Shown piece by piece: positions 39,757 through 43,114 of a stretch of DNA of 64,000 nt (its first letter is position 1; every line of letters starts with the position of its first letter). Made by a program: the position numbers and the translations under genes. The DNA comes from Oleisolibacter albus. GTDB lineage: Bacteria; Pseudomonadota; Alphaproteobacteria; Azospirillales; Azospirillaceae. A model generated the notes under the pieces. That model searched no databases. It was not told where the DNA came from and worked only from the letters and a program-made list of their open reading frames with translations. The stretch is from contig NZ_QGNJ01000017.1 in the NCBI RefSeq assembly GCF_003336875.1, forward strand, positions 1-64,000, in the 5' to 3' direction.

Positions 39757-40992
39757 TCAGTCCCGCCCGAAGACCTCCACCGGGTCCTGCAGCCCTTTGA
39801 CGGCATGCAGGCCCAGGCTGCGCAGCCCGCCCTCCGGGCAGGCCGCGGCGAAGGCGGCGGATGTCAGCAGCGGCCGGTCCAGGGCGCGGGTCAGCCCTTC
39901 CAGACGGGTCACCAGATTGACCGCCGGGCCGATGACCGTGAAGTCGAGACGGTCGGGGGCACCGATATTGCCGTAGAGCACGTCACCCACATGCAGGGCG
40001 ATGCCGGCACCCAACAGCGGCTGGCCCCAGGCCGCGCGCTGGGCATTAAGGCTGGTCATGCCGGCCATGGCCTCGTCCGCCGCGGCCAGCGCCTCGGCGC
40101 ATTGGCGCGCCAGTTCGTCCGGTCCGTTGCCGGCGCCGATGGGGAAGATCGCCAGCAGGGCGTCGCCGACGAATTTCAGCACTTCGCCGCCGCGGCGCTG
40201 CACGGCGCCGCCCATGATCTCGAAATAGCCGTTCAGCAGGGCGATCAGCGCCCCGATCTCCAGCCGGTCGGCCAGGGGCGTGAAGCCGCGCAGATCGCAG
40301 TACCAGAGCACGGCCGAGAGGGTCATGCCGCTGCCACGGCGGATATCGCCGTCCAGGATGCGCTGGCCGGCCGCCGGCCCGACATAGGTGTTCAGCAGGG
40401 TGGTGGCCAGCAGGCGCAGCGCCCGCGCCTCCAGCAGCACACTCAGCGCCGGCAGGGCGCCGTAGAGCATGCCGAGATCGGCGGCGGAAAAGCCGCCGGG
40501 ATGGCGTGTGGCGAAAGTCACGGCGTTGCGGCGGCCATTGGCGCCGACCAGTGCCATGGCTGTGTAGTCGCGGAAGCCCTGGTCCCAGAGATCATGCAGC
40601 ACGGGGTAGGGATAAGGCGGGGCCGTGCGCTCCAGCGGCACATGGATGCCCTCGACCCCGCCATCGATGATGGCGGAGATGGGGCTTTGCCGGTAATCCG
40701 GAGTCAGTTCGATCCCGTGTTCCCGGTTGATCTGCTCGATCCCGTCGCGATCGACTCGCCAGATGTAGGTAACGGCTCTGATCTGCGGATGCAGCAGACG
40801 GACATGCAGCGTCATGCGCTCGATGGGGCAGCCGGCCTCACGCAGATGATGGGCATAGGCCTCGATCAGGGCCGGGATGTCGCCGTGGCGCACACCCACT
40901 GTCAGCAGCCAGGTTACGACGCGCATGGCCGCGGGATCGGGAACGCTGAAATCCCCGTCAGCTGCCTCTGCCGGCCGTCCTTCCCCCATCAT
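39757..40992 (-). CDS. Class III adenylate cyclase-type protein with N-terminal sensor region
   Basis: 411 residues. The C-terminal cyclase domain (about 200-370) has WYCDLRGFTPLADRLE with the metal aspartate, EVLKFVGDALLAIFPIG, and RLDFTVIGPAVNLVTRLEGL. Lys in VLKFVGD and Asp in LDFTVIG fit ATP specificity, with Asn and Arg for transition-state contact also present. The N-terminal 190 residues form a GAF-like sensor (inference). ATG at 40992 or 40989. It is convergent with hemH, 16 bp apart. Confidence 0.9.
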   Translation of the reverse strand: MMGEGRPAEAADGDFSVPDPAAMRVVTWLLTVGVRHGDIPALIEAYAHHLREAGCPIERMTLHVRLLHPQIRAVTYIWRVDRDGIEQINREHGIELTPDYRQSPISAIIDGGVEGIHVPLERTAPPYPYPVLHDLWDQGFRDYTAMALVGANGRRNAVTFATRHPGGFSAADLGMLYGALPALSVLLEARALRLLATTLLNTYVGPAAGQRILDGDIRRGSGMTLSAVLWYCDLRGFTPLADRLEIGALIALLNGYFEIMGGAVQRRGGEVLKFVGDALLAIFPIGAGNGPDELARQCAEALAAADEAMAGMTSLNAQRAAWGQPLLGAGIALHVGDVLYGNIGAPDRLDFTVIGPAVNLVTRLEGLTRALDRPLLTSAAFAAACPEGGLRSLGLHAVKGLQDPVEVFGRD

Positions 40993-41180
40993 CACTCCGC
41001 CGATGCGGTTCCACGCGCGGTCCCGCGCGGGGCCGCCTTGTCGATGAACGTCTTGATCTCCCGGCGCATACTGCCCACTTTCGCCCTGTCCCGCCAGCCG
41101 TAGGGGCCGCATGGGCGGCCCGCGGACCGGTTTCCGGTCACGGCAACCGTCCGGCGGCAGCAGTTCCAAGGTGCCCGATC

Positions 41181-41732
41181 ATGTTCATCCAGACCGAAGA
41201 AACCCCGAACCCGGCAACCCTGAAATTCCTGCCCGGCCGTGACGTGCTGGGCCGTGGCACGGCCGATTTTCCCGAGGCCGCCATGGCTGCCCGCTCTCCG
41301 CTGGCCCAGCGTCTGTTCGAGGTGGAGGGAGTGACCCGGGTGTTCCTGGGGTCCGATTTCGTGACCGTCACCAAGGATGGCGGCCATGACTGGTACCTGC
41401 TGAAGCCCAGCATCCTGGGCGTCATCATGGAGCACTTCACCGCAGGGCGCCCGGTCCTGCTGGAGGAGCATACCGACGACAATGCCATTGCCGAGGATGA
41501 CGACGAGGTCGTGGCCCAGATCAAGGAACTGCTGGATACCCGTGTGCGTCCCGCCGTGGCCCAGGATGGTGGCGACATCACCTTCCACGGTTTCGACCAG
41601 GGCATCGTCTATCTGACGATGAAGGGTGCCTGTGCGGGGTGCCCCAGTTCCACCGCCACCCTGAAGGCGGGTATCGAGAACATGTTGAGGCACTACATTC
41701 CCGAGGTTGTCGAAGTCCGCCAAATCCGCTAA
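41181..41732 (+). CDS. NifU-family Fe-S scaffold/carrier protein (Nfu)
   Basis: 183 residues. The N-terminal Nfu domain reads MFIQTEETPNPATLKFLPGR; the C-terminal NifU domain has AVAQDGGDITFHG and GACAGCPSSTATLK with the CxxC cluster ligands. It carries 4Fe-4S clusters to apoproteins in the cytoplasm. Divergent from the cyclase gene. The folded leader for the next gene starts soon after its stop. Confidence 0.94.
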   Translation: MFIQTEETPNPATLKFLPGRDVLGRGTADFPEAAMAARSPLAQRLFEVEGVTRVFLGSDFVTVTKDGGHDWYLLKPSILGVIMEHFTAGRPVLLEEHTDDNAIAEDDDEVVAQIKELLDTRVRPAVAQDGGDITFHGFDQGIVYLTMKGACAGCPSSTATLKAGIENMLRHYIPEVVEVRQIR

Positions 41733-41754
41733 GGTGCAAATTCACTGCCTAAAA

Positions 41755-41975
41755 ATCGTCTTAAATGGCAGGCAGAGGCAGAGCCGGGGAGCAAAGATCT
41801 CCCAGGGGTGCGATACCCCGACCGGCTCGGTCCGGCATCACGGTCAAACCCGAAGAATGGGACCGTTGACGCCGGTGGAGCCTCTATGGACCCGCGGAAC
41901 CGGCCACACTCGGCACGGCCTGGACCCAAGGGTCGACCGGAGAAGTTCCGGCACCGATAGCCGCGACGGGTGATC
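41755..41975 (+). ncRNA. Strongly folded leader, candidate riboswitch or cis-regulatory RNA
   Basis: A three-way junction is visible at 41781-41828: outer stem GAGCCGG/CCGGCTC, inner hairpin GGAG-CAAAGAT-CTCC, inner hairpin GGGGT-GCGAT-ACCCC. A second element at 41832-41875 pairs CCGGC with GCCGG and CGGTC with GACCG. A further hairpin ACGGG-TGATCCG-CCCGT lies near 41966. The element precedes a glucosaminidase gene. Parts of the text recall the c-di-AMP (ydaO) riboswitch core, but the 3' half does not match well. See findings. Confidence 0.5.
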
Positions 41976-42025
41976 CGCCCGTGCGATCGGTATCGCTTGG
42001 AAACGGGTACGGGAGTGAGGTGTAC

Positions 42026-43114
42026 ATGCCGACGGACAAGACCGAGGGCCATTGCGGCCCCCGATGGCCGACCTTGTGCGCCATCCTGTTGGCGGTCACG
42101 GTGGTGTTTCCCTGCAGCCTGTGGCGCATCGGGAAAGCCGAGCCGGCCGCCGATGTGGCCGCAACGGCAGAGGTCGCACGCGCCGCGTCGACCGCCGTTG
42201 AGGCCGGGGATGACGAGGTCGCGCTGGCCATGCCCGCCAAGGCGGTCAAGCGGATCGCCGCGCGTCTGGACGCGCGGTCGCTGCTGGATCTGTTCCACGC
42301 CGCCGACTACCACATCGACCAGGTGCGCAGCGGCAGCATCGCCGTGCCGCGGCTGGTGCTGGCGGATCTTCCCCACGATATCGACCGGCTGGAATCCAGC
42401 GATGACCGCAAGGCGGTTTTCGTGAAGACCATGCTGCCGCTGATCCTGCTGGCCAATGAACGGATCGAGGCCGACCGTGACCGCCTGTCGAAACTGCATC
42501 AGATCCGCGAAAGCGGGCAGGCCCTGGCACCACAGGACCGGCTCTGGCTGGCGGATCTGGCCGAGCGCTATGGGGTCGAGGTCGAAGGTGAGGTGGATAC
42601 CAAGGATCTGCTGAAGCGCGTTGATATCGTGCCGCCGTCCCTGGCCCTGGCCCAGGCCGCCGAGGAGAGCGGCTGGGGAACCTCTCGCTTCGCGCAGAAG
42701 GCCAATGTGCTGTTCGGTCAGCTGACCTGGAAGGCCGAGGATGCCGGCGTGACTCCGCGCAACCGCCAGCCCGGCCAGACCCACCGCTACCGCGCCTTCG
42801 ATGACCCGAAGGCCAGCGTCGAGGCCTATATCCACAATCTCAACACCCACCGGGCCTATGAAGGGTTCCGGCGCCTGCGTGCGTCGCTGCGCACCCATGG
42901 CAAGCCCCTGGACGGCGTCCAGCTGGTGTCCACGCTGGAACGCTATTCGGAGCGCGGTGCGGATTATGTCCACACCCTGCAACGCCTGATCCGCAGCAAC
43001 AAACTGGCCGATTTCGATCAGGCGGTGCTGCGTGATCTCGAACTGCCGGCTGCGGCGGATGGGGATGAGGCGGTCGGTGACACGGCGGCGGTCCTGCCGC
43101 TGGTTGTGCGCTGA
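42026..43114 (+). CDS. Glucosaminidase-domain (Bax-like) peptidoglycan hydrolase
   Basis: 362 residues. One membrane helix (about residues 14-32, LCAILLAVTVVFPCSLW), then a helical region, then the Bax/glucosaminidase domain with QAAEESGWGTSRFAQKANVL and HRYRAFDDPKASVEAYIHNL. It should cut glycan strands in the periplasm while anchored to the inner membrane. The ATG at 42026 is preceded by GGGAGTGAGGTG. It is preceded by the folded leader. It is not in an obvious operon. Confidence 0.87.
   Translation: MPTDKTEGHCGPRWPTLCAILLAVTVVFPCSLWRIGKAEPAADVAATAEVARAASTAVEAGDDEVALAMPAKAVKRIAARLDARSLLDLFHAADYHIDQVRSGSIAVPRLVLADLPHDIDRLESSDDRKAVFVKTMLPLILLANERIEADRDRLSKLHQIRESGQALAPQDRLWLADLAERYGVEVEGEVDTKDLLKRVDIVPPSLALAQAAEESGWGTSRFAQKANVLFGQLTWKAEDAGVTPRNRQPGQTHRYRAFDDPKASVEAYIHNLNTHRAYEGFRRLRASLRTHGKPLDGVQLVSTLERYSERGADYVHTLQRLIRSNKLADFDQAVLRDLELPAAADGDEAVGDTAAVLPLVVR

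Follow-up and report, generated by a model that had tools for sequence, protein, structure and literature searches.

A genus-restricted candidate leader RNA with covarying stems between nifU and a Bax-like glucosaminidase gene in Oleisolibacter albus

The spacer between nifU and the gene for a Bax-like glucosaminidase in Oleisolibacter albus very likely encodes a folded RNA leader. The spacer comprises 293 bases (41733-42025 of the window, which is the whole stretch of 64,000 nucleotides that was analysed), and both flanking genes are on the same strand. Comparison among relatives identifies the leader as a real, previously unlisted and lineage-specific structured RNA, which belongs to a known kind, the cis-acting leader RNAs. 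Lineage-restricted structured leader candidates are a familiar outcome of comparative genomics. The nifU-bax leader resembles them in having covarying stems upstream of one gene family; it differs in that no Rfam family is found in the window at gathering score, and in a promoter-like motif that is embedded in the upstream stop codon. When Rfam matches with E up to 10 were admitted for the region 41600-42150, three low-scoring matches were obtained, of which two are on the opposite strand and the third is in nifU, and with E up to 1 nothing was found in the leaders of 13 loci. A literature search found no publication on the nifU-bax leader.

The features of the locus are collected in Table 1. 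The Bax-like protein matches the NCBIfam model 'protein bax' (NF007681) with an E-value of 3.7e-43, yet remains under its cut-off (147.7 of 193 bits). On the minus strand 5' of nifU, an ORF (39757-41169) shows an adenylate/guanylate cyclase domain match which is weak yet above cut-off (PF00211, E 2.8e-5).

Table 1. Features of the nifU-bax region, with positions in the window.
Feature	Position	Strand	Basis or occurrence
nifU, NifU/Nfu-type Fe-S scaffold (Nfu_N and NifU domains)	41181-41732	+	Pfam PF08712 (1.8e-31), PF01106 (3.5e-29)
-35-like TTGTCG, inside nifU codons GTT GTC GAA	41707-41712	+	20 of 20 nifU-bax leaders
-10-like TAAGGT, its TAA being the nifU stop codon	41730-41735	+	TAnnnT at spacing 17 in 20 of 20
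P0, possible 5' hairpin CTGCC/GGCAG	41745-41749/41767-41771	+	sequence
5' structured domain (model R1)	41772-41891	+	covariation count, alignment-fold z -6.0, genome searches
P1, outer helix AGAGGC/GCCTCT	41774-41779/41880-41885	+	computed fold
P2, stem GAGCCGG/CCGGCTC of the three-way element	41781-41787/41822-41828	+	sequence, computed fold
Ha, hairpin inside P2	41788-41791/41799-41802	+	
Hb, hairpin inside P2	41805-41808/41816-41819	+	
P3, stepped stem	41832-41875	+	computed fold
P5, hairpin CCGGA/TCCGG	41937-41951	+	most widely conserved leader sequence
P6, variable stem, ACCGAT/ATCGGT in the window	41953-41991	+	sequence, predicted fold
CTTGGAA, single strand 5' of the ribosome-binding site	41996-42002	+	similar in relatives, by eye
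Candidate Shine-Dalgarno GGGAG / GAGG	42011-42020	+	sequence, by eye
Bax-like glucosaminidase gene (362 aa), led by the leader RNA	42026-43114	+	PF01832 (1.7e-16)

Both structures that the initial annotation had described in the window were recovered. The three-way element (41781-41828), with a 7-bp stem and two inner hairpins, and the stepped stem (41832-41875) are present and are contained in the minimum-energy folds. The statement that all helices are perfect Watson-Crick holds for the pairs of the stepped stem, but this stem also has a bulge and an asymmetric internal loop. What had been overlooked is the outer helix P1, which encloses the three-way element and the stepped stem and thus makes them one domain, as well as the possible hairpin P0 and a pair of hairpins on the 3' side, upstream of the ribosome-binding site. 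P0 is absent from the minimum-energy fold of the window, and relatives have comparable hairpins of other sequence, as judged by eye. Taken alone, the fold of the window is only moderately beyond chance, and the size of the effect depends on the stretch chosen: a stretch of 131 nt gives z -2.44, a stability attained by 4 of 200 shuffles, the 271 nt of the original finding give -0.88 (attained by 42 of 200), and the 299 nt that extend from the stop codon of nifU to the ATG of bax give -2.93 (40 shuffles). For 11 other leaders, single-sequence values range from -1.39 to -5.31.

A Bax-like protein is found in 21 of the 82 genomes of the family, namely in 10 of the 11 genomes of the window's genus (its own included) and in 11 from five other genera. 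The bax-like gene directly follows nifU in 20 of these 21 genomes; G013 is not counted among the 20 leaders because its bax match (L026), which lies inside an open frame of 1172 aa, and nifU are not adjacent. In G005, the eleventh genome of the genus, neither bax nor the leader nor a nifU match at 1e-60 was found, and the absence of the leader is uninformative there because the bax and nifU matches are also missing. Within the genus, the spacers are 293-316 nt long and strongly divergent in sequence, and when the window's leader was searched as DNA against 40 genomes, it retrieved itself and one further genome, the latter over 82 bases.

Searches at the level of structure were based on R1, a covariance model of the 5' domain that was built from nine sequences and then fitted to ten genomes. 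Among the 82 family genomes, R1 found exactly one copy in each of the ten bax-bearing genomes of the genus (E 5e-26 to 2e-4), and in all ten, including that of the window, the copy is directly upstream of the Bax-like gene. The 5' domain is much altered in G004, a genome of the same genus that was not used in building R1, where the match is weak (30.7 bits). Seven further matches occurred in six of the 82 family genomes (E 0.002 to 0.09), and a search of 385 genomes drawn from the class returned only the three genus members drawn and one 26-bit match; the weak matches of both searches (seven and one) were treated as chance. Weak R1 matches of 24-27 bits in other genera are those at L044, L045 and L086. 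At most 45 candidates per genome were scored in the family search and at most 9 in the class search, with strict filters, and therefore weak relatives of R1 can be missed. At this sensitivity the 5' domain is, as judged from its matches, genus-restricted and tied to one gene.

The initial annotation had proposed a check for covarying pairs upstream of bax-like genes in relatives, and such pairs exist: the stems vary in sequence while pairing is kept. The counts come from an alignment (A5) that was fitted to R1's own structure and in which the relatives are not independent; across its 30 pairs, ten genomes and 290 cells, 83.8% of the cells are paired as compared to a shuffle mean of 75.6%, double changes with pairing kept affect 11 of the 30 pairs (shuffled mean 6.0) and 23 cells (shuffled mean 9.6), and none of 500 shuffles reached any of these values. 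If the partners are slid by 1-3 columns, 35-48% of the cells are paired. Covariation is clearest in P1, which reads GAGGC/GCCUC in the window, GAAGC/GCUUC in G001, AAUGC/GCAUU in G002 and G009, and AUGGC/GCCAU in G008; other members of the G008 subclade have variants, some with a bulge or mismatch.

As the R1 alignment had been fitted to the structure, a second test was run on MAFFT alignments of the ten genomes, comparing the consensus-fold energy with that of 100 column shuffles. The full leader has a z value of -8.4; the 5' domain reaches -6.0 and the 3' part -2.9. Among four neighbouring controls, the nifU end gave -0.9 and the 300 bases after bax -0.6, and it has to be kept in mind that two coding controls themselves reach -2.0 (bax start) and -1.6 (bax middle). 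Together, the two alignment tests demonstrate a 5'-domain fold that is conserved by compensatory change. They do not separate the strands: z is -7.6 for the gene strand versus -6.6 for its complement, G-U pairs occupy 14 cells versus 12 for A-C, and on the opposite strand of three leaders R1 gives weak matches (E 0.02 to 0.4). The strand, which the pairing pattern does not settle, is taken from the gene direction and from the promoter-like motif, and transcription of the leader is likewise inferred.

This motif is carried by the 3' end of nifU, stop codon included. The pattern TTGTCG-N17-TAnnnT, in which the TA belongs to the TAA or TAG stop codon, is found in all 20 nifU-bax leaders, which represent five genera. 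All 20 share the valine codons GTT GTC that underlie TTGTCG. A degenerate amino acid is invariant in 71 columns, but the codon is fixed as well in only 4 of them, two of these being this GTT and GTC. At six other valine columns within the last 75 nifU codons (13 genomes), GTT accounts for 7 of 73 codons. As controls we used 21 nifU genes without adjacent bax (16 of g12 and 5 of g8), after loci had been obtained for 30 of 80 matching genomes and 9 from bax-bearing genomes had been left out; GTTGTC occurs in none of the 21, and 20 of them have TGA as stop codon. The promoter motif was also not found at L003 and L004, more distant loci where a Bax-like gene likewise follows nifU. Agreement of the hexamers with the sigma-70 consensus is partial, the -10 half being weak, and a simple promoter scan gave no hit. 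The alphaproteobacterial sigma-70 motif is CTTGAC-N17-CTATAT according to PMC2873474; the nifU-end motif is similar to the promoters described there in its TTG.C core and N17 spacing, whereas its -10 half (CTAAGG) is weak compared to that consensus and is constrained by the nifU stop codon. A promoter in the nifU end probably accompanies the leader, with a predicted RNA start near 41742.

In the 3' part, the P5 motif CGGA-N3..8-TCCGG occurs in 20 of 20 leaders from five genera, at a distance to the ATG of 73-89 nt in 13 leaders and of 112-116 nt in the seven of genus g2; by chance it appears in 156 of 4000 shuffled leaders (3.9%). A stem comparable to P6 was counted in 8 relatives, not including the window. 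In some genomes the CTTGGAA strand could, tentatively and read by eye, close P5 and P6 by pairing with an upstream CCAAG (CCAAG/CUUGG). R2, which models the 3' part and was built on eight genomes (the window and G004 not being used), matches those eight and neither the window nor G004. For the 19 pairs of P5 and P6 in the eight genomes, the covariation score is 0.261 as compared to 0.148 after shuffling (reached by 0 of 500), while the number of double-change pairs is unremarkable (5 versus 3.6 shuffled, reached by 88 of 500), P5 being invariant. Access to the ribosome site was predicted from the leader and 60 coding bases in the ten genomes; the mean unpaired value varies from 0.17 to 0.64 and therefore no common on/off state is visible.

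Two observations concern relatives. The seven species of genus g2 (L027-L033) have a different leader before the Bax-like gene, with a stretch of more than 200 nt that is nearly unchanged. It contains a long hairpin (GCCAUGCC/GGCAUGGC) and a helix that encloses P5 and P6 before the ribosome site, and its fold z value is -7.9 for the complement as compared to -6.5 for the gene strand. In addition, three relatives have a Guanidine-II riboswitch match some 1.3 kb beyond bax on its downstream side (L012:3939-3988, L013:46-94, L014:13-62), two of the three being over cut-off. In G010 the match is followed by a 105-residue ORF (L087:168-485), which resembles an SMR exporter.

It had been proposed that the region is a new cis-regulatory RNA. 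Of this, the conserved and covarying structure, always upstream of the Bax-like gene, was confirmed, while the regulatory role itself is suggested at the level of sequence. We consider it fairly probable that a cis-acting structured 5' leader tunes the output of the glucosaminidase once transcription is under way, rather than that the 5' domain senses a small molecule. Transcription would start near 41742, from the promoter that overlaps the last nifU codons and stop codon, and would yield a leader of about 280 nt. This would consist of a closed 5' domain (P1 around P2/Ha/Hb and P3), probably preceded by P0, and of a 3' part (P5, P6) that ends just before the bax ribosome-binding site. Transcribed together with bax, the leader may set the amount of the wall hydrolase via ribosome access and mRNA stability. 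The probabilities that we assign to the alternatives, which are taken here in descending order, overlap one another and that of this best explanation.

The leader might be a structured spacer for RNA processing which protects the bax mRNA end or marks a site of RNase cleavage, with no regulated response. Shape being kept more than sequence, stems that differ between genera (by eye) and the common direction of nifU and bax all agree with such a spacer, which we consider unlikely but worth keeping in view; the sequence of P5 and its distance to the ATG are kept over five genera, which exceeds the needs of a mere spacer. It is distinctly unlikely that the nifU promoter drives a separate small RNA or dual-function RNA which acts in trans, bax being merely downstream. 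This RNA could rely on its own promoter-like motif and on a compact 5' domain of about 120 nt, but no terminator-like site was found by a sequence scan of 41600-42100, all 10 genomes have the domain 5' of bax, none of the 21 examined nifU genes without bax has the promoter motif, and the 3' part toward the ribosome site is also structured (z -2.9).

Also doubtful is a new ligand-sensing riboswitch, in which the three-way elements would form the pocket and the 3' part would switch ribosome access. It could draw on the compact multi-branched fold directly before a wall hydrolase gene, on the wide conservation of P5, on alternative pairings that CTTGG near the ribosome site might form in competition (by eye), and on a precedent at a wall peptidase gene, as a c-di-AMP riboswitch before nlpC exerts control in Corynebacterium glutamicum according to PMC9960051. 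However, within the 5' domain conservation is lower in unpaired than in paired columns (mean 0.64 versus 0.81 in ten genomes), and 3 of 55 unpaired columns are invariant versus 23 of 60 paired ones, although the loop alignment is uncertain and misaligned loops may lower the figures. This is the reverse of what a ligand pocket needs, and therefore shape seems to outweigh sequence in the 5' domain; as far as the aligned loops can be trusted, their poor conservation speaks against a ligand pocket there. The limitation of the domain to one gene and one genus, and its much altered form in G004, are further points against this riboswitch. A related proposal, to which we give little credence, is a sensor leader class that times the glucosaminidase and would combine a fast-evolving, shape-only 5' domain, a conserved P5/P6 junction by the ribosome site and a promoter sharing the nifU stop.

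Control of bax by a translated short ORF in the leader is very unlikely. In a listing of ATG starts, two frames of 13-14 and 21-22 codons, with lengths that differ by whole codons, recur in G003, G006, G007, G008 and G010 (leaders L011-L015), and the second shares the reading frame of bax and terminates a short way upstream of its ATG, but neither is present in the window, G001, G002, G004 or G009. The window has three other ATG frames (24, 34 and 38 codons), for which no clear counterpart is seen in the nine relatives, as judged by eye. Chance folding of a G+C-rich spacer, with which the single-sequence value for the 271 nt of the original finding (z -0.88) would agree, has a slim probability and is rejected, since compensatory changes are present and the alignment z values are far past those of the four neighbouring controls.

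The resemblance to the c-di-AMP (ydaO) riboswitch, noted by eye for GCCGGGGAGC...GGGGTGCGAT, did not hold up: a covariance-model search of 41600-42150 that admitted E-values up to 10 gave no match to RF00379, the similar-looking stretch lies in a paired region whose sequence differs between relatives, and diadenylate cyclase (PF02457) was found in none of the 11 genus genomes by a search that matches 11 of 14 control genomes, so that a divergent form of this riboswitch has next to no probability and is ruled out as far as sequence allows. In the 11 genus genomes, RF00379 matches all stay below cut-off; there are seven of them, in four genomes, and the one in the window (E 1.3) lies within the bax coding sequence. 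Compared to the ydaO/kimA riboswitch (RF00379) as presented in PMC9960051, the common feature is a folded leader before a wall hydrolase gene, whereas the nifU-bax leader is without a covariance-model match and its genus without a detected c-di-AMP synthase; for these reasons the C. glutamicum precedent is an analogy of position only.

The apical loop AGGAA in relatives had raised the idea of CsrA control. This was rejected, as CsrA (PF02599) was found in 0 of 11 genomes while 3 of 14 controls match; the window's own apical loop, GAAGAAU, is without GGA.

In summary, the nifU-bax leader illustrates how shape may be retained while sequence turns over, and how synonymous codons together with a stop codon may fix a promoter-like motif. 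Most of what is known about leader RNAs that control wall hydrolases concerns c-di-AMP riboswitches, which belong to other phyla. In a genus where no c-di-AMP synthase was found, a large structured leader at a glucosaminidase gene would make it possible to test directly whether RNA governs wall cutting in Alphaproteobacteria.
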